Of a DNA stretch of 56,677 nt, positions 4,567 to 49,099 are shown piece by piece. A program made the position numbers and the translations under genes. Under the pieces are notes generated by a model that was not told the origin of the DNA, made no database searches, and saw only the letters and a list, made by a program, of their open reading frames with translations. The stretch comes from a virus: the IMG/VR virus record IMGVR_UViG_3300001847_000386, positions 1 through 56,677 of that record. One strand, 5' to 3'. Numbering within the stretch: position 1 is the stretch's first letter; each line of letters starts with the position of its first letter.

Positions 4567-4638
4567 TTGGCTAAAATAATAAAAGAGTCTTTATTAAATT
4601 AATCCAAAAATATACTAATTTAAGTCATATTTATTCAT

Positions 4639-4974
4639 ATGATAAGACTAACTGATATACTAAATGAAGTAGCACTATCAAATGGAATAGATGCCGATAC
4701 ACTAAAGTCGGACACTGATAAAAAGAAATTTGTAGAGCTAGGTTACATTTCGGAATACCCTGATGTTACAATAATATACATTAACAGCATATATTCAAAG
4801 ACGAGTAACTACATACTTGAGAAATCAAATAAACAGACATCAGCATACATTAAAGATATGGATAGGCAATTTCGTAAAGAATATGGAATAAGAATATACC
4901 TACATGAGTTAGGGATATCGGACTCAATTACTGCAAAGATAATGGCACAACCTGATAAATACAAAGCAATATAA
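4639..4974 (+). CDS. Unknown protein with capsid-targeting-type N-terminus, 111 aa
   Basis: N-terminus MIRLTDILNEV has the amphipathic pattern ending in L-N-E that fits a T4-type capsid targeting sequence with a prohead-protease site after residue 10 (inference). Its first 26 bases are identical to those of the next gene. The mature part is helical with several Tyr and Lys residues and no known motif. A motif ATATTTATT ends 3 bases before the start. Predicted to be packaged in the head as an internal protein. Confidence 0.7.
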   Translation: MIRLTDILNEVALSNGIDADTLKSDTDKKKFVELGYISEYPDVTIIYINSIYSKTSNYILEKSNKQTSAYIKDMDRQFRKEYGIRIYLHELGISDSITAKIMAQPDKYKAI

Positions 4975-4977
4975 GTA

Positions 4978-6387
4978 ATGATAAGACTAACTGATATACT
5001 AAAACAAGTTTTAATTAAAGAGTCTGGAATACGAGACATAAATAAACTTGCTAAAGAGAATAATAAAGCAGATCTGTATTTCCATATGGATCTTGACGGT
5101 GTCACAAGTGCTATTGGTATGAAAGCCTATTTAGAAAAATATGGCATTCAAGTAGTAAATGCAGAACATATACAGTATGGAGGTCGTGAATATTCTGCTC
5201 CTAAGCCAACACCAGGACATATGGTAGTTCTTGTTGACTTTGCTCATGGCAAACCTAATGTGACAATACATACAGATCATCATGAAGCGCAAAGCGGGGT
5301 AGAAAAAGGAACTGCCTCTAATTTTAAGAAAACTCCATCTAATGTAGCGACTATATCTCAAGAGATTTCTCCATCAGACATATTTCCAACAGAAGACATA
5401 CAAATAATATCTACAGTAGACTCTGCTGACTTTGCTAGACAGGGTATCAGTGTAGATCAAGTACTTAATACAGCATTTAAATATGATCCCAAAAGTTCAG
5501 TAAAAATGAACAGATTGACTATGGGATTAGTGACTAATAAAATAATATTAGCTTTTAAAGGTCAACCTAGATTTTTAGAGAACATAGTTATGGAAGCTGA
5601 GCCTTCTTTAACAAGTATCTATAATGTGGCTTTAAAGAATGCAAAAAAAGCTGGACTAAAACCAGAAGATTTAGCAAGTGCACAAGCGGGATATATTAAA
5701 GGACAAAGTCCTGAAATTAAAAAGAAAGTGTTATCTTCTCCTGCTGATATTGCAGATTTACATAATGGAGAATACGGTATGATTGGAAATGTATTAGTAC
5801 AATATGGATTAGGTTCACAAAAAGGTGGTGGATATGATAGATATGTTCCATTTAAAATGAATCCTACTGCTGATTATATGATTCTTGGTTATCCTATGGG
5901 ATTGATACAAGCAGCTAAAAATCCATTTAAAGAGGGCACAAATAAATTTAATCTTGGTGATATTGCGATGAAGATCTTGGATAAGTATAAACCTTATTTA
6001 GAAAAAAAGATACTTACTTTAAGAGATATAAAGAAAACAATGGAGTCTGATATAGAAAGATCTGGATCAGAAAAATCATTTGGCTTTACTCTAAAAGATA
6101 TGGTTGCACTATTTGGAGACAAGATTAAAGGTATGCCTCCTACAGAAAGAAGAGATTTATTAGATACTATAGCAAATAAACAGTATAGAAATTTAACTCC
6201 AGAAGAAAAAATACAATTAGAATCTATAAAAATTAATGCTTACGATTTAATAAAGAAACAATCAGGTGGTCATAAAGATATTACTAATATATCTGGTTTA
6301 AATTTCTTATTTGACGATACAGTAAAATTTACTAAACAAATAATGCAAGACTTAGCCGATGAGTTAAAAACTGCAAAATTATCATAA
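4978..6387 (+). CDS. DHH-family phosphoesterase with capsid-targeting-type N-terminus, 469 aa
   Basis: Residues 1-16 (MIRLTDILKQVLIKES) repeat the N-terminal peptide of the upstream gene, with an I-K-E cut-site candidate at 13-15. The catalytic domain follows: D38-x-D40-G (HMDLDGVTSA), VDFAHG near 86-91, the DHH motif D100-H101-H102 in HTDHHEA, and a further Asp in STVDSADF near 147. These are the metal-binding motifs of DHH phosphoesterases, which cut oligonucleotides, cyclic dinucleotides or single-stranded DNA. The long C-terminal half (about 170-469) is unassigned. Carrying a DHH enzyme in the virion would let it act at the moment of infection; a nucleotide-signal-degrading role is one possibility but is not shown. 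Confidence 0.8.
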   Translation: MIRLTDILKQVLIKESGIRDINKLAKENNKADLYFHMDLDGVTSAIGMKAYLEKYGIQVVNAEHIQYGGREYSAPKPTPGHMVVLVDFAHGKPNVTIHTDHHEAQSGVEKGTASNFKKTPSNVATISQEISPSDIFPTEDIQIISTVDSADFARQGISVDQVLNTAFKYDPKSSVKMNRLTMGLVTNKIILAFKGQPRFLENIVMEAEPSLTSIYNVALKNAKKAGLKPEDLASAQAGYIKGQSPEIKKKVLSSPADIADLHNGEYGMIGNVLVQYGLGSQKGGGYDRYVPFKMNPTADYMILGYPMGLIQAAKNPFKEGTNKFNLGDIAMKILDKYKPYLEKKILTLRDIKKTMESDIERSGSEKSFGFTLKDMVALFGDKIKGMPPTERRDLLDTIANKQYRNLTPEEKIQLESIKINAYDLIKKQSGGHKDITNISGLNFLFDDTVKFTKQIMQDLADELKTAKLS

Positions 6388-10658: not shown

Positions 10659-11057
10659 ATGAAACTACTAGAATTGTTACTAGAAAATAATAATGTAAAA
10701 TTACAACCTATTACGCCAAATAGATTTGTTTATCATAAATCAAATCCAATATTTAGAGACTCAATATCAAAACAAGGCATAATTCCAAAAGGAAAAAGTG
10801 ATGCTTGGCTATCAAATACTCCAATTAGTGGTAAAGTAATATTTGCTACTAATAGTGACAATGAAAAAGATTGGTTTGATTCAATGTATGATGATGATGT
10901 CTATAGAATAGATACACGGAAAATAAATAATATATGGTATATAGATCCTAATTTTCAAATACAAAACTATAACAAACACATAATTACTTTTGATAAAATA
11001 CCAGTTAGTGCAATAACATTATTATATAAAGGAACAGGAGATTCAATAGAAATTTAG
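10659..11057 (+). CDS. ADP-ribosyltransferase-like protein with capsid-targeting-type N-terminus, 132 aa
   Basis: Residues 1-9 (MKLLELLLE) give a targeting-type peptide with an L-L-E site. The body reads like a compact ADP-ribosyltransferase-fold domain: VYHKSNPIFRDSISKQGIIP at 24-43 (the 'Y-H-x-S ... I-x-x-x-G-I-x-P' opening of DarT, KptA and related folds, His26), a strand VIFAT near 60-64, DVYRIDTRKI near 80-89, and a closing IITFDKIPVSAI near 108-119. The catalytic Glu is not certain. T4 packages the ADP-ribosyltransferase Alt with a targeting sequence, so a head-packaged transferase here would be a functional parallel. Fold assignment is by pattern only. Confidence 0.6.
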   Translation: MKLLELLLENNNVKLQPITPNRFVYHKSNPIFRDSISKQGIIPKGKSDAWLSNTPISGKVIFATNSDNEKDWFDSMYDDDVYRIDTRKINNIWYIDPNFQIQNYNKHIITFDKIPVSAITLLYKGTGDSIEI

Positions 11058-11069: not shown

Positions 11070-11627
11070 ATGAAATTAATGAACCTACTTTTAGAAGCTG
11101 AAGCTGAGAAGCAAGAAGCTGATATTATGGCTCAACTAAAGGGTCAAATGAATGATCTAGTTAAAAATATAGATACTACATTACAAAATCAATCTGAGGA
11201 ACAAAATGAGAGCTTATTAACTGCAGCAGGAATAGCGGTGGCAATGCCAGCAATTTTAGGTTTAGTATCTAAATTTGGAAAATCTGCCTCTTCAGTAATA
11301 AATAAAATAATGGGTAAAAAACCCACAGAGAAAGAACAAGAAGAAAATTGGTTTAATAAACTTGGTAAAATTGCAGATGATCTACATCATTTATATCAAG
11401 CTCCAATAGAAAAACTTATATCTAAATTTGTTAAAGATCCAACTAAAGCAAAAAAAGTATCTCATTTTTTATTCCATGTAATAGTTGCTATAATGCTTAT
11501 TGCATCAGGAGTTACAGCTGTAAAAGCTTTAAAATCAAAAGAGGTGTCTATAGCAACTTTAGAAACTGCTATTGCCACAATAAAAAGTGGTGAAATTAAA
11601 AAGTATATATCTAAATTATTAGTATAA
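11070..11627 (+). CDS. Membrane-active-type protein with capsid-targeting-type N-terminus, 185 aa
   Basis: Residues 1-9 (MKLMNLLLE) are the targeting-type peptide. An acidic, helical segment follows (about 10-48), then two hydrophobic segments: about 49-66 (LLTAAGIAVAMPAILGLV) and about 132-151 (FLFHVIVAIMLIASGVTAVK). A membrane-inserting protein carried inside the head could help DNA or protein passage through the host inner membrane; that is inference. Stop and next start overlap by one base (TAATG). Confidence 0.7.
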   Translation: MKLMNLLLEAEAEKQEADIMAQLKGQMNDLVKNIDTTLQNQSEEQNESLLTAAGIAVAMPAILGLVSKFGKSASSVINKIMGKKPTEKEQEENWFNKLGKIADDLHHLYQAPIEKLISKFVKDPTKAKKVSHFLFHVIVAIMLIASGVTAVKALKSKEVSIATLETAIATIKSGEIKKYISKLLV

Positions 11628-12433
11628 TGATCTGTTTAACAGATATATTATTTGAAGTACTAAAAGAAAAGCGCACTGGCGCAAAAAATAAAGCACCACA
11701 AGGAGTATTATTCTTGACATCTAAAAAAATATTAGTGGGAGATAATCACTTTGATCCTGTAGAATTATCTGAAGAATTATTTAATACTATTTTATCCGTT
11801 GGTAAAACATATGGTTATTATGGTGAAGGTATAGGTATAGAATATAACAAAGGAGTTATGAGTTCAGATATATATAAAGCTTTAAAAGACAGCGGTGCTA
11901 AATATAAAGGTTCTTGGGATGATAAAGTCAAAATACCTAAAGAAGAAAAATACGCGTATATAGCAACTTACTTTTCTAATCCCTCAGAAAACCATAGAGT
12001 GCCAACTTTAATGTCTAAAGTAAAAGACGGTGATACTATTTTTAGCCTGTTATCTAGAACATTCGATGACTATACTCAACCTGGCTTAAATTTAACTTCA
12101 GAAGACCTGAAGAGGTTCTTACAGGAAATGAGTGAAAAGGGTATTGACTTTCTGGAACTATCTAAGCAACCAGTAACAAAAGAAGCATTACAAGACTTCA
12201 CTGACAAGGGTGAAGCCTTAATGTGGCCAGATAACTGGGAAGAATATCCAAACAAAGCAGGTAAATTAGCTAGAAGAGAAACTATTATAAGAGATACATG
12301 GCTTATAGAAAAAGCACCATCAGGTATCTATTTTATAGGTTCTGGACATTTAAAAGACATTTCAAAAATGTCTAAAATAAAAATTATAGATGGAAGCAAA
12401 ATAGGAAGTAGATCTTCAGCTGATATAAAATAA
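11627..12433 (+). CDS. Unknown protein with capsid-targeting-type N-terminus, 268 aa
   Basis: N-terminus MICLTDILFEVLKEK closely resembles the peptides at 4639 and 4978 (xxLTDIL) with L-F-E at 8-10 and a second L-K-E at 12-14. The body is soluble, with GDNHFDPVELSEELF near 38-52, a Gly/Tyr-rich segment (YGYYGEGIGIEYNKG), and a C-terminal Trp/Pro region. No known motif. It is coupled to the upstream gene by a TAATG overlap. Confidence 0.7.
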   Translation: MICLTDILFEVLKEKRTGAKNKAPQGVLFLTSKKILVGDNHFDPVELSEELFNTILSVGKTYGYYGEGIGIEYNKGVMSSDIYKALKDSGAKYKGSWDDKVKIPKEEKYAYIATYFSNPSENHRVPTLMSKVKDGDTIFSLLSRTFDDYTQPGLNLTSEDLKRFLQEMSEKGIDFLELSKQPVTKEALQDFTDKGEALMWPDNWEEYPNKAGKLARRETIIRDTWLIEKAPSGIYFIGSGHLKDISKMSKIKIIDGSKIGSRSSADIK

Positions 12434-13708: not shown

Positions 13709-14425
13709 ATGAATTATAAAAAAATATATGATCAAATAATTGAAAGAGGAAAAAATAGATCTTTAAACGGATATAAAGAATGCCATCATATTATTCCAAA
13801 ATGTTTAGGTGGGAATAATGATAAAAATAACTTAGTAGATTTAACTGCAAGAGAACATTTTTTATGTCATTGGTTATTACATGAAATATATCCTGATAAT
13901 AAGAAATTATTTGTTGCGTTTCATATGATGTGTCAAATAAATAACTATCATAAATTATATTTTACACCTAGCTCTAGATTAGTCGATTATTGTAGAAAAC
14001 AACATGCAAATAATTTATCAGGAATAAAGAAACCTGATCACTCAATTAAAATGAGTGGTATTAATAATCCAATGTATGGGAAAAAGGGAAATCTTAATCC
14101 TAATTATGGCAAAAAAAGACCTGATTTTAGTAAAAAAATGAAAGGTAAAAAAAGACCTCCATTTTCACAAGAGTGGAAGAAAAAAATGAGTTTAAGTAAA
14201 ATAGGAAAAAACTTAGGTGATCAGAATCCTATGAATAATGAATCTGTAAAAGAAAAGTTTTATAAAAAAATAAATCAATATGATTTAAATGGAAATTATA
14301 TTAAATCATGGAATAGTATTAAAGAAGCAGGTATTACTTTAAATATACATAGAAGTAACATAACATTGTGTTGCCAAGGAAAATATAAAAAAGCTGGGAA
14401 TTATATTTGGAAATATATTAATTAA
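13709..14425 (+). CDS. HNH homing endonuclease with NUMOD domains, 238 aa
   Basis: Order of domains: HNH nuclease at about 22-52 (ECHHIIPKCLGGNNDKNNLV, then LTAREHFLCHWLL), NUMOD3-type repeats at about 112-135 (NNPMYGKKGNLNPNYGKK), a basic linker, and a NUMOD1/helix-turn-helix type end at about 190-236 (INQYDLNGNYIKSWNSIKEA ... KAGNYIWKYI). This is the usual layout of mobile phage homing endonucleases that cut an allele lacking them and spread by repair. It has no intron or intein around it, so it is free-standing. Its stop overlaps the stop of the minus-strand gene by three bases. Confidence 0.92.
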   Translation: MNYKKIYDQIIERGKNRSLNGYKECHHIIPKCLGGNNDKNNLVDLTAREHFLCHWLLHEIYPDNKKLFVAFHMMCQINNYHKLYFTPSSRLVDYCRKQHANNLSGIKKPDHSIKMSGINNPMYGKKGNLNPNYGKKRPDFSKKMKGKKRPPFSQEWKKKMSLSKIGKNLGDQNPMNNESVKEKFYKKINQYDLNGNYIKSWNSIKEAGITLNIHRSNITLCCQGKYKKAGNYIWKYIN

Positions 14426-39171: not shown

Positions 39172-39933
39172 TCAATTATCCATATTTTCTATATGGTGAG
39201 ATAGCATCTTCTTATAGATAGTCTTGAGCTTTTTAATAACTTTGGTTATTGTAGCTGATTGTACATCTGCAATTTCTTTAACATAGATAAAAATTGCTTT
39301 CTTATTAAATATATCAATATTGTCTCTTTTTCTGAAGATTTCTAATATAGCATCAGCTGTTTTAATGTCTTCAGGTTTATCAAATAATTCTAATAAGTTA
39401 TTGTCAATTTCTTTTATAAATGCATCCACAATATCATATCTATCATACTCTTCTGGTTCTGGTTGTTCTATAAGTTTATCAATAGTTTTTTCATCATTAT
39501 GAATCTCGCTAAAGTCTGTTTTTGATAAAACTCTTTTATAATTTTTTTGGTTGTAAAGAATTAAATACCTTTTAACTATAGTTCCAAAATAAGAATAAGC
39601 CTTACCTTTTGATTGATCGTATAAATCTATTTTCTGTAAAAGAAAAGAAATCACTTCATACTTTAAATCTTCTATATTATCAACATCAGTATAGTAGAAT
39701 TTAAATGTGTGAATAATATTCTCAGCTAATTTATAAAACGCATTATGAATTTTCTCATTATATAATCGATTTCTTTCAGAAAATGTTGTAGCATTTCTAT
39801 ATTGTAAAATAGCATCTTCAGTTTCCTCTGTGAAATAAACATTTTTTGTTTTTGGCTTTCTTTTTCTAGGAGATCCTTTTTTAGTTAGCGCAACTTCTTG
39901 AGTAGTTTCAATTTCTATTATATTATTCTCCAT
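39172..39933 (-). CDS. 55: Late-transcription sigma factor, T4 gp55-like, 253 aa
   Basis: The central region (about 60-125) reads NAFYKLAENIIHTFKFYYTD, then LKYEVISFLLQKIDLYDQSK and AYSYFGTIVKRYLI, the region-2-like core of gp55-type phage sigma factors, which act with a sliding clamp to read late promoters. A basic N-terminus (KKGSPRKRKPK) and an acidic middle (EQPEPEEYDRYDI) differ from T4 gp55 (185 residues). Sigma gp55 recognises TATAAATA in T4; which sequence this one reads is unknown, but the recurrent ATATTTAT(A/T)A element is the natural candidate. Confidence 0.88.
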   Translation of the reverse strand: MENNIIEIETTQEVALTKKGSPRKRKPKTKNVYFTEETEDAILQYRNATTFSERNRLYNEKIHNAFYKLAENIIHTFKFYYTDVDNIEDLKYEVISFLLQKIDLYDQSKGKAYSYFGTIVKRYLILYNQKNYKRVLSKTDFSEIHNDEKTIDKLIEQPEPEEYDRYDIVDAFIKEIDNNLLELFDKPEDIKTADAILEIFRKRDNIDIFNKKAIFIYVKEIADVQSATITKVIKKLKTIYKKMLSHHIENMDN

Positions 39934-43460: not shown

Positions 43461-44261
43461 ATGATTAAACTGTCTAAACTTTTATTGGAAGTAACATCAA
43501 GTCCAATAGCCATATTCTTAGCGGGATCGGCAGGAGCTGGGAAATCAACATTTAGAACCGAGTTTTTAGATCCTGTAGCAGATTTTACTGTATTAAATGT
43601 AGATGATGAATATGAACCACTACTTCAAAAAGCCGGTTTACCATTAGATTTTAGAAAATTTCAAGGTCCTGAGGATTTATCTGCGGCAGGAAGTGCAATG
43701 GCCCAGGCTCAAAAGATACATAGATCAAAATATGAGAAATCAAAAGTAGATATGTCTCATATTATTATAGACGGAACTGGTGGATCTTCTAGAGAAATAT
43801 TAAAAAAGAAAAAAGAACTAGAAGAGTTAGGATATAAAACTGCAATGGTGCTAATATTTGTACCACCAGATATATCTCTTAGTAGAAATATCAAAAGAGG
43901 TGATGAGGGTGGTAGAACTCTTATGCCGTCTATTATATTGAGAAGTTGGTCTAATATGTTTAGTAATATAGATTTGTATAAAAAAGAATTTGGAGATAGT
44001 TTTATATTATATAAAGCATATGATGAAAAAGATGTGGTATTTCCTAAATTTGATCCAACAGATCCTGAAGTAAGAAAACAATTTTTTGATCCATTCAAGG
44101 TAAAAGGTAAAGAAAAATCTCCTGAAGAGATGGCAAAAGGACTTCAAAAATTTAAAGATTTAAATAATCAAATAGCTATACAAATTAGCAAAATAAATGA
44201 TTTACATTTTGATGATCCGACTGAAATAAAAACAAAAATAAATAGATTGGTAAATGCGTGA
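43461..44261 (+). CDS. Zeta-type P-loop kinase with capsid-targeting-type N-terminus, 266 aa
   Basis: MIKLSKLLLEV is the targeting peptide with L-L-E at 8-10. A strand and Walker A follow (IAIFLAGSAGAGKST, G22-S29) and LNVDDEYEPLL near 46-56. IIIDGTGGSSREIL near 97-110 is the D-G-T segment of the zeta toxin and related small-molecule kinases. An acidic, helical C-terminus follows. Zeta-type kinases phosphorylate UDP-N-acetylglucosamine and can act as toxins, but phage relatives vary. The next gene starts 8 bases before this stop. Confidence 0.78.
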   Translation: MIKLSKLLLEVTSSPIAIFLAGSAGAGKSTFRTEFLDPVADFTVLNVDDEYEPLLQKAGLPLDFRKFQGPEDLSAAGSAMAQAQKIHRSKYEKSKVDMSHIIIDGTGGSSREILKKKKELEELGYKTAMVLIFVPPDISLSRNIKRGDEGGRTLMPSIILRSWSNMFSNIDLYKKEFGDSFILYKAYDEKDVVFPKFDPTDPEVRKQFFDPFKVKGKEKSPEEMAKGLQKFKDLNNQIAIQISKINDLHFDDPTEIKTKINRLVNA

Positions 44262-44846: not shown

Positions 44847-45740
44847 ATGACAATAGAACAAAAAATAGGTATTGTAAAAGATTTTATAAAATTTTGTGAA
44901 TACAGTTTACAGATTGAAAATCTACCTAAAATTGAATTTACAAAAGATAAAGACTGGGTATTAAGTATACACAGTTTTGGTCAATATAAAAATGACTCTA
45001 AAAGTTTAAAAGTCTATATAGGAAATAGAAATCTTGCTGATACATTAAGAACATTATCACACGAATTAGTTCACCATAGACAAAATGAGTTAGGCCTATT
45101 ACATCCAGATTCAGGAAAAGCTGGATCTGATATTGAGAATCAAGCAAATTCAATATCTGGAGTAATTATGAGAAATTATGGTAAAAAAAATGAATTGATA
45201 TATGAATCAAAACTTCATAAAATACTAAATGAAGTAATATCAAATACATATACCATTTATTCTGATATGGATGGAGTTTTAACTGATTTTGATGGTCAAT
45301 TTGAACATTATTATGGTATGACTCCTAGAGAATATACAAATGAGAAAGGTCCAGTAATATTTAAAAAAGCTGTTGATGATATTGGAGTGACTTTTTGGTC
45401 AAAAATGCCACTTTTCCCTGGAGCTTTAGATCTATGGTCTTATATATCTCAATACAATCCTATTATTTTATCAAGTCCTAGTAGTTTTAAATACGCTGAA
45501 AAAGGTAAATTAATCTGGATAAAAGAAAACTTAAGACCAGGTCCTAGCAATATTATTTTTAAACAAACAGGACATAAAGAAGATGCTATAAGTAATTTAC
45601 CAGAGTCTGAAATTAAAAAATCTATATTAATAGATGATTATTACAGAAATATAATGCCTTGGAAAGCGATTGGTGCAATTGGAATTGTACATAAAAGTGC
45701 TGAAAATACTATAAATATTTTACAAAAATTTAGATTATGA
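44847..45740 (+). CDS. Two-domain protein: HExxH metalloprotease-like plus HAD phosphatase-like, with an internal targeting-type peptide, 297 aa
   Basis: N-terminal part: H72-E-L-V-H76 zinc motif (LSHELVHHRQNELG) with a possible third ligand E97 in ENQAN, typical of small metallopeptidases. Around 117-130 the chain reads LIYESKLHKILNEV, resembling the N-terminal peptides of other genes, with an L-N-E site at 127-129. Directly after this comes a HAD motif I (SDMDGVLTDFDG, D140-x-D142), a long cap, and later SILIDDYYRNI. The HAD family includes 5'-nucleotidases. I infer that the prohead protease may split the chain into two proteins. Coupled to the next gene by a 4-base overlap. Confidence 0.75.
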   Translation: MTIEQKIGIVKDFIKFCEYSLQIENLPKIEFTKDKDWVLSIHSFGQYKNDSKSLKVYIGNRNLADTLRTLSHELVHHRQNELGLLHPDSGKAGSDIENQANSISGVIMRNYGKKNELIYESKLHKILNEVISNTYTIYSDMDGVLTDFDGQFEHYYGMTPREYTNEKGPVIFKKAVDDIGVTFWSKMPLFPGALDLWSYISQYNPIILSSPSSFKYAEKGKLIWIKENLRPGPSNIIFKQTGHKEDAISNLPESEIKKSILIDDYYRNIMPWKAIGAIGIVHKSAENTINILQKFRL

Positions 45741-46153
45741 TTAAGTTATTAAACATACTAAAAGAATCAGCTTATCCATTTTCAGAACATGATGTTCTAT
45801 ATGATGATGAGGATAATAGTTTATTAGTAGTTGAATATACTTTTAATACAAAACAAAATAAATACAAAGTCATTTTTGATTCTAAACAAAAAGAAAAAGA
45901 ATTTGAACTATCATTTGGAGTAGATACTGGAGAATTGAATAAAATAGATACATTTCAAATGACAGGAGAAGGAGATGCTAGAAATATTTTAGAAACAATA
46001 GCTGAAATAATTAATGATTTTTACTATCAATATGAAGAAGAAGTAGATAAGATTATTATTGATGGCACGAATGAAAAACGTAGGAGAATATATAAATTAT
46101 TTTTCCCTAAATTTATTAATCCTGAAGCCTTAAAAGTAGTACAAATAATATAA
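45737..46153 (+). CDS. Unknown protein with capsid-targeting-type N-terminus, 138 aa
   Basis: MIKLLNILKES at 1-11 with an L-K-E site. The body includes a beta-rich N-terminal half (VEYTFNTKQNKYKVIFDSK) and a helical half ending with GTNEKRRRIYKLFFPKF, a C-terminal pattern that I recall from uncharacterised T4-like phage proteins. No catalytic motif. Confidence 0.7.
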   Translation: MIKLLNILKESAYPFSEHDVLYDDEDNSLLVVEYTFNTKQNKYKVIFDSKQKEKEFELSFGVDTGELNKIDTFQMTGEGDARNILETIAEIINDFYYQYEEEVDKIIIDGTNEKRRRIYKLFFPKFINPEALKVVQII

Positions 46154-48403: not shown

Positions 48404-49099
48404 ATGATAAAATTAAAACATTTACTCAACGAAGTTTCTTATGATAAATCAGGATTAAAAAATCCAAAGCTGGCTGATAGAGATAAAGACAATAAAATCT
48501 CTTCTTGGGAGAAAAAAGTTGGTCAAAATATAGAAAAAAATATAGATGAGTCAATCCCTGAGGATCAGTATAATATTGGAATGAAAAAGTATAGTGTAAC
48601 AAAACCTAAATTATCACAAAATGAAACTGAAAAAATAAAAGGTGGTGATGGTAAAGGTTGTTGGAAAGGATATAGATATGCTGGCACAGAAAATGGAAAA
48701 GATAAGTGTATTCGCATAAAAGAAGCAGAAGAAACATGTCAATGTGGTGCTAAAATGGAAAATAAATTGTGTACAGAGTGCGGATATATGCAAGAAGGCA
48801 TTGATGTATTAGGAAAACCATCTAGCGATCATGAGGCTTCAATGGCAAAAGCGGAATTAAGAGATATGATTGAAAATTCTCAAGATATTTACGAAATGAT
48901 TGAAGTAGGAACTGAATTACCTGCTTGGATTAGTTCATATATAACTTTAGCATCCGATTATATGCATTCTGTTAAAGAATATATGGCAGAAAAAACAGCT
49001 GAAATGGATTTAGAAGCGCCAGATGATGAAGATAGTTATGATTATGATCAAGAAGATTATGATGATTATAGTGATAGCGAGGAGGATTTTGATCGTTAA
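48404..49099 (+). CDS. Unknown multi-motif protein with capsid-targeting-type N-terminus, 231 aa
   Basis: MIKLKHLLNEV with an L-N-E site at 8-10. Then a calcium-loop-like DRDKDNKISSWE near 26-37, a GKGCWKGYRYAGTENGKDKC segment near 84-103 known from marine phage proteins, a zinc-ribbon CQCGAKMENKLCTECGY near 114-130, then a helical segment AELRDMIENSQDIYEMIEVG (conserved in T4-like phage virion proteins), and a strongly acidic Tyr/Asp-rich end. Appears to be a string of small phage modules behind a targeting peptide. Confidence 0.72.
   Translation: MIKLKHLLNEVSYDKSGLKNPKLADRDKDNKISSWEKKVGQNIEKNIDESIPEDQYNIGMKKYSVTKPKLSQNETEKIKGGDGKGCWKGYRYAGTENGKDKCIRIKEAEETCQCGAKMENKLCTECGYMQEGIDVLGKPSSDHEASMAKAELRDMIENSQDIYEMIEVGTELPAWISSYITLASDYMHSVKEYMAEKTAEMDLEAPDDEDSYDYDQEDYDDYSDSEEDFDR

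Follow-up and report, generated by a model that had tools for sequence, protein, structure and literature searches.

A DHH-DHHA1 superfamily protein of uncultured T4-like phages, predicted to be a phosphodiesterase and likely packaged in the head through a T4-type leader

The whole stretch of DNA analysed here, referred to as the window, is virus record IMGVR_UViG_3300001847_000386 of IMG/VR (56.7 kb). Judging by their translations, its genes include those for the terminase, portal, baseplate and tail of a T4-like myovirus. Open reading frames (ORFs) were called mechanically. The gene under study and the features around it are as follows; in all protein sequences a slash marks the cut position, which is a predicted one in the window proteins and their relatives.

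4627..4634, + strand: ATATTTAT box upstream of the 4639-4978 operon, a putative late-promoter element
4639..4974, + strand: upstream operon partner, 111 aa, leader MIRLTDILNE/V with the exact 4/7/8/10 pattern
4978-6387, + strand: DHH gene, ATG start, 469 aa, ORF bounds exact
4978..5022, + strand: leader of residues 1-15 (MIRLTDILKQVLIKE), predicted to target the capsid and to be cut after E15
5083..5430, + strand: DHH catalytic motifs HMDLDG (residues 36-41), VDFAHG (86-91), DHH (100-102) and VDSAD (147-151)
5560..6384, + strand: connector and DHHA1-type domain with helical insertions; DRY (287-289), NPF (315-317) and SGGH (429-432)

A preliminary description of this DNA had claimed a full set of DHH motifs at 4978-6387, and this was confirmed: motif I (H36-x-D38-x-D40-G), D87 of motif II, D100-H101-H102 of motif III and D148 of motif IV are all present and invariant among 29 non-redundant relatives (alignment A2). 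G430-G431-H432 near the C-terminus is likewise invariant in these relatives. The Pfam DHH model PF01368 matched the protein at E=1.1e-4 with 23 bits, under its curated threshold of 28.1 bits, and PHROG 4771, 'DHH phosphoesterase', matched it at E=0.0055. The doubt raised by the below-threshold Pfam match was removed by an AlphaFold model built on the 29-row alignment (mean pLDDT 83.8, pTM 0.81) and by a fold search on that model with VIA; Foldseek was also run. The nearest folds were the PAP phosphatase 8a8k (VIA Z 15.7) and the pGpG phosphodiesterase PggH 7d62 (Z 15.6), both over residues 30-467, followed by RecJ (up to 12.6), TM1595 (11.6), the NrN-SAH-AMP structure 9lqc (11.4) and DhhP (10.7); nanoRNases scored Z 8-11.6. 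The modelled fold matches the DHH-DHHA1 class of PAP phosphatase, pGpG phosphodiesterase, DhhP, NrN and RecJ, and its two-domain arrangement is also that of the NrnA, nanoRNase and pGpG phosphodiesterase class (Z 15.6-15.7 for PggH and PAP phosphatase). Judged from its motifs and its modelled fold, the product of 4978-6387 is a member of the DHH/DHHA1 superfamily and a predicted metal-dependent phosphodiesterase.

Because the model matches DHH-DHHA1 enzymes along the whole chain, the C-terminal 300 residues, which the same description had left unassigned, are instead a connector and a DHHA1 domain that has the GGH motif and carries helical insertions. The Pfam search gave no direct match of DHHA1 (PF02272) to the window protein itself. 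A profile comparison with Falkowbacteria DHH proteins reached an hhalign probability of 97.6 overall, with the window's NPF ... SGGH segment corresponding to NPW ... GGGGH (the GGH correspondence was made by eye), and one of these matched proteins has PF02272 at E=3.3e-4. PDB sequence searches with the window protein (P0001) and with alignments A1, A2 and A3 returned nothing significant; LuxR-type PDB matches to the GGH segment were judged to be chance. Some members of the family are extended at the C-terminus (up to 965 aa), and Pfam found no partner domain in these members. The small-nucleotide DHH-DHHA1 phosphodiesterases (PggH 7d62, archaeal PAP phosphatase 8a8k, DhhP 9r7o, TM1595 5o1u and NrN 9lqc) have the same domain order, the common catalytic DHH residues and the GGH motif in the second domain. 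However, identity to these cellular enzymes is 10-15% in structural alignments, and the window protein adds helical insertions and a leader. Phage DHH proteins in BFVD (PhiEaH1, Y3 and PaBG; 283-347 aa) matched the window protein weakly, at 11-13% identity.

T4 gp21 cuts after L/I-x-E, and in IPIII the first 10 residues suffice for targeting, with positions 4 and 7 serving targeting and positions 8 and 10 serving processing (PMC9026906). The T4 leaders read MKTYQEFIAE/A in IPII and IPIII and MAKINELLRE/S in gp24. In the DHH leader, L4, I7 and L8 are hydrophobic, which is the register of T4 IPIII and gp24. Position 10 is Q in the window protein and E in its two closest relatives, L012 (MIKLKDLLVE...ILE/S) and L013 (MIKLSNLLNE...LTE/S), with which it groups in the tree and which carry E at both 10 and 15. 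Since the window protein has Q and not E at position 10, we predicted the cut after E15, where the leader ends in the [LI]xE motif (I13-K14-E15/S16) and the sequence reads MIRLTDILKQVLIKE/SGIRDI. The site could be anchored in 51 of 53 representatives; P1 is Glu in 51/51, P3 is L or I in 45/51, and P2 varies freely. Four of the six rows with another P3 residue are of the megaphage type (NEE), in which the site reads one residue earlier, and by eye the two unanchored representatives also have LxE or IxE ahead of the domain. Model confidence is low at the leader and cut site (pLDDT under 50 for residues 1-3 and 7-16), and canonical DHH structures begin aligning at residue 14-15 of the window protein. 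The conservation of E15-x-G17 could reflect something other than cleavage.

The leader differs among relatives. Two Falkowbacteria relatives start directly at the domain without a leader, while megaphage relatives have T4-like leaders of other sequence (MISKYNQFINE/E and MLRKYGQFINE/E), and the leader of the largest clade (L107-L182) is only about 7 residues long (MKKILKE/SG). The T4 4/7/8/10 pattern is absent from the gene neighbours in this largest clade and is not significant among the neighbours of megaphage DHH genes. Head targeting is less certain in the largest clade because of its short leader and its neighbours without the T4 register; the case for it is strongest in the window's own clade.

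A plain count of [LI]xE gave a moderate signal (19/50 vs 17%), for which reason the stricter T4 register was adopted: hydrophobic residues at 4 and 7, L or I at 8 and E at 10. In a T4 control of 63 ORFs (49 kb) this pattern selected IPII, IPIII and gp24 only, and in an E. coli control it selected 0/41 ORFs. It occurred in 5/62 ORFs of the window, with 0.05 expected (p=1.6e-9), the DHH protein itself not being among the five, and in 6/106 ORFs of close relatives. Near the DHH gene of other phages, about a third of the ORFs (203/562) have [LI]xE near the N-terminus, and the pooled-locus p-values for this motif are too small because loci of one clade are not independent. Further leader-bearing genes of the window are listed below.

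10659..11057, + strand: ART/Tpt1-like protein, leader MKLLELLLE/N; phrog_5470 RNA 2'-phosphotransferase, E=8.5e-4
11627..12433, + strand: protein with leader MICLTDILFE/V, exact 4/7/8/10 pattern
43461..44261, + strand: zeta-toxin-like kinase with leader MIKLSKLLLE/V, exact pattern; Pfam PF06414, E=2.3e-9
45737..46153, + strand: DUF6934 protein with leader MIKLLNILKE/S, exact pattern; PF22028, E=6.5e-11
48404..49099, + strand: protein with leader MIKLKHLLNE/V, exact pattern

The DHH leader resembles those of non-homologous window genes (MIRLTDIL at 4639 and MICLTDIL at 11627), and 0/500 permutations were as good. This permutation result was clear for the window and for locus L062, but at many loci, where close kin contribute to the same pool, it was not. 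Gene 4639 ends 3 nt ahead of the DHH start codon, and the first 26 coding bases of the two genes are identical, as if the leader had been copied between them. In a 177-kb relative (G004), leader-bearing ORFs include some that resemble HAD, ART-like, kinase and nucleotidyltransferase enzymes, as judged from N-terminal sequence.

Several further observations concern these leaders. The ART/Tpt1-like protein at 10659-11057 is a possible functional analogue of T4 Alt. ORF 44847-45740 contains an internal leader-like segment, SKLHKILNE/V, at residues 121-130 (window 45207-45236), which follows an N-terminal part with an HExxH motif and precedes a 5'-nucleotidase-like HAD domain (phrog_2643, E=2.4e-22); it looks as if two genes had been fused with the second gene's leader retained. 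A free-standing selfish gene for an HNH/NUMOD homing endonuclease (phrog_655, E=8.9e-44) adjoins the leader-gene cluster at window 13709-14425. In another locus (L067, 12645-14479) four consecutive small genes have a different common leader (MKELIRHILKEE and kin), which is also found on the DHH protein of that locus. Other N-terminal leader types (MKxxITExQ... and xNESExxRILxxH...) occur on many unrelated ORFs of L031, L074 and L076 and are perhaps further head-targeting classes.

A gp21-type prohead protease (PF03420) is encoded by the phage of locus L003 (E=1.8e-31), in 9/18 and 3/12 other DHH-bearing records, and in all six DHH-bearing IMG/VR records longer than 200 kb. No head-protease gene was found in the window, which is a fragment, and several DHH-bearing records of 137-194 kb had no PF03420 match and may be fragments as well; because the records are unfinished, such absence is weak evidence. 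Upstream of the genes, the 7-mer ATATTTA was found in 15 upstream regions with 1.3 expected. The ATATTTAT box lies 10-30 nt ahead of many starts, including those of the terminase (53513), tail and baseplate genes and leader-bearing genes.

4627, 8026, 10647, 11058, 12467, 13692, 43448, 46744 and 53490, + strand: ATATTTAT boxes, with several more on the - strand

This distribution suggests that ATATTTAT is a candidate late promoter and that the DHH operon may be expressed late. The box resembles the reverse complement of T4's TATAAATA. A sigma-factor family (phrog_1740) matched window 39172-39933 (- strand) weakly, at E=0.005; the product may be a late sigma factor like gp55.

The targeting-type peptide noted earlier in this protein proved to be real, being common to non-homologous window genes and in the register of T4 IPIII and gp24. 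Several independent lines, namely this register with its positive and negative controls, the cut motif, the gp21-type protease of relatives, the sharing of the leader with unrelated neighbours and the shared promoter motif, make it likely that the DHH enzyme is packaged in the head, which supports the initial proposal that it is carried there. The resemblance to T4 IPI-IPIII and gp24 extends to leader length, the hydrophobic positions 4, 7 and 8, the [LI]xE cut motif, the presence of the protease in relatives, and the use of a common leader by proteins that are otherwise unrelated. The Ip1-3 proteins that T4 packages counter defence by blocking type IV restriction (PMC12373910); unlike these small inhibitors, the predicted cargo here is a DHH-superfamily enzyme.

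In the reading that we prefer, the DHH gene would be expressed late in infection, and its 15-residue T4-type leader would bring the enzyme into the prohead core. A gp21-type protease would remove the leader after E15 (I-K-E/S), the mature enzyme would begin SGIRDI, and it would be packed with the DNA and enter the next host alongside it. There it would most likely hydrolyse small nucleotides (dinucleotides, short linear oligonucleotides or nucleotide second messengers), and it would do so before phage gene expression. We place this reading as a whole, a late-made DHH-DHHA1 phosphodiesterase that is leader-targeted, cut by a gp21-type protease, injected and active on small nucleotides, just on the probable side. 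It is unlikely, in our estimate, that the leader is not head-targeting at all, the enzyme being cytoplasmic and the shared N-termini serving another assembly or localisation role. Such a role would suit the 203 of 562 neighbouring ORFs with [LI]xE, which are many for an internal proteome, and the very short leader of the dominant clade. However, the exact T4 register selects only known processed head proteins in T4, and [LI]xE is the cut motif of gp21 itself, a protease that DHH-bearing phages encode.

In IMG/VR, at least 596 stretches encode relatives of the DHH protein. Among deposited phage genomes (INPHARED, 50,697 records, searched with four diverse members as queries), only four metagenomic megaphages and no isolate were found, and a scan of genome contigs gave 4 loci only. 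In uncultured phages this is a very large family, but deposited phage genomes almost entirely lack it. The Falkowbacteria proteins (L098 and L099) and a protein of a Myxococcales MAG (L097) share the DHH core and the NPW/NPF and GGH motifs with the window protein. The insertions are missing from the short forms; L098 and L099 have no leader, and L097 has a signal-peptide-like start. The Myxococcales gene (L097, 5719-7491) encodes a full-length relative in which this start stands in place of the leader. It falls within the phage tree on a long branch, and it may have been acquired from a phage and then redirected to export.

Whether the enzyme is packaged and what it cuts are two separate issues, so the probabilities that we attach to the alternatives on each overlap. 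Small nucleotides are the substrates of the enzymes nearest in fold, but what the window protein acts on does not follow from its predicted fold, and RecJ ranks close behind. The fold class comprises signal-degrading phosphodiesterases (NrN acting on SAM-AMP, PggH on pGpG, and DhhP) as well as RecJ and PAP phosphatase. The packaged enzyme might specifically destroy CBASS, type III CRISPR (cOA or SAM-AMP) or similar second messengers on entry. In Bacteroides, the DHH enzyme NrN has been tied to SAM-AMP, the signal of a type III CRISPR system (PMC10600005), and the NrN structure is among the fold matches of the window protein. For jumbo-phage DHH phosphodiesterases (e.g. ALN97901.1), which belong to the same superfamily, the same anti-signal role has been proposed, directed at SMODS and CRISPR signals (Iyer et al. 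2021, PMC7824862); head targeting is not a point discussed in the available part of that paper. The packaged Ip1-3 of T4 likewise act against defence. A counter-defence role of the DHH enzyme is plausible and has these precedents. On the other hand, one enzyme with an invariant active site is kept by hundreds of phages, whereas the Ip inhibitors are specific and variable, and no defence or anti-defence gene was seen beside the DHH gene, nor was any genomic link to a defence system found. We consider this specific role rather improbable.

About the same low probability applies to a housekeeping function like that of nanoRNase or pAp phosphatase, in which the enzyme would recycle short oligonucleotides or small nucleotides during takeover and have no part in defence. 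The best VIA matches, PAP phosphatase and PggH, cover the whole DHH-DHHA1 core and nanoRNases also match, broad conservation suits a core role, and leader-bearing nucleotide-handling enzymes occur in the window. Nevertheless, a recycling enzyme has no need to be injected, and sequence similarity to NrnA is negligible: the curated NCBIfam NrnA model gave no match for the window protein and matched L099 only, at 12.6 bits against a cut-off of 350.

Slightly less likely still is a role in processing DNA ends, as a RecJ-like exonuclease acting on single-strand DNA. RecJ and archaeal RecJ/Cdc45 align with the model over residues 14-469 (Z 9-12.6), sharing the core fold, and motif I is HxDxDG as in RecJ, with weak matches to RecJ HMMs. 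These matches, however, scored far under the curated cut-offs (14.9 bits where 360 are required, and 13.6 where 396.9 are), and bacterial RecJ aligned only through about residue 430 of its about 700, its C-terminal region having no counterpart in the window protein. Altogether, the sequence data do not favour counter-defence over a nanoRNase-like or exonuclease role.

A broader proposal is that a very common lineage of uncultured large T4-like phages loads its heads with a set of enzymes for delivery (the DHH phosphodiesterase, ART-like, kinase and nucleotide-handling proteins) through T4-type leaders and that nucleotide signals of the host are removed by the DHH enzyme on entry, ahead of all phage gene expression; we regard this combination as doubtful, on a par with the RecJ-like role. 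That phage DHH enzymes counter nucleotide signalling has already been published as a proposal (PMC7824862). New here, relative to the open-licence PMC literature, are the evidence for head targeting, the fold assignment and the extent of the family. If the preferred reading is right, a very abundant group of uncultured phages would inject a conserved phosphodiesterase, and nucleotide signals or oligonucleotides would be cleared at the very start of infection. Since it was exact on the known processed head proteins of the T4 control, the leader rule offers a cheap predictor of the enzymes that large phages may deliver with their DNA.
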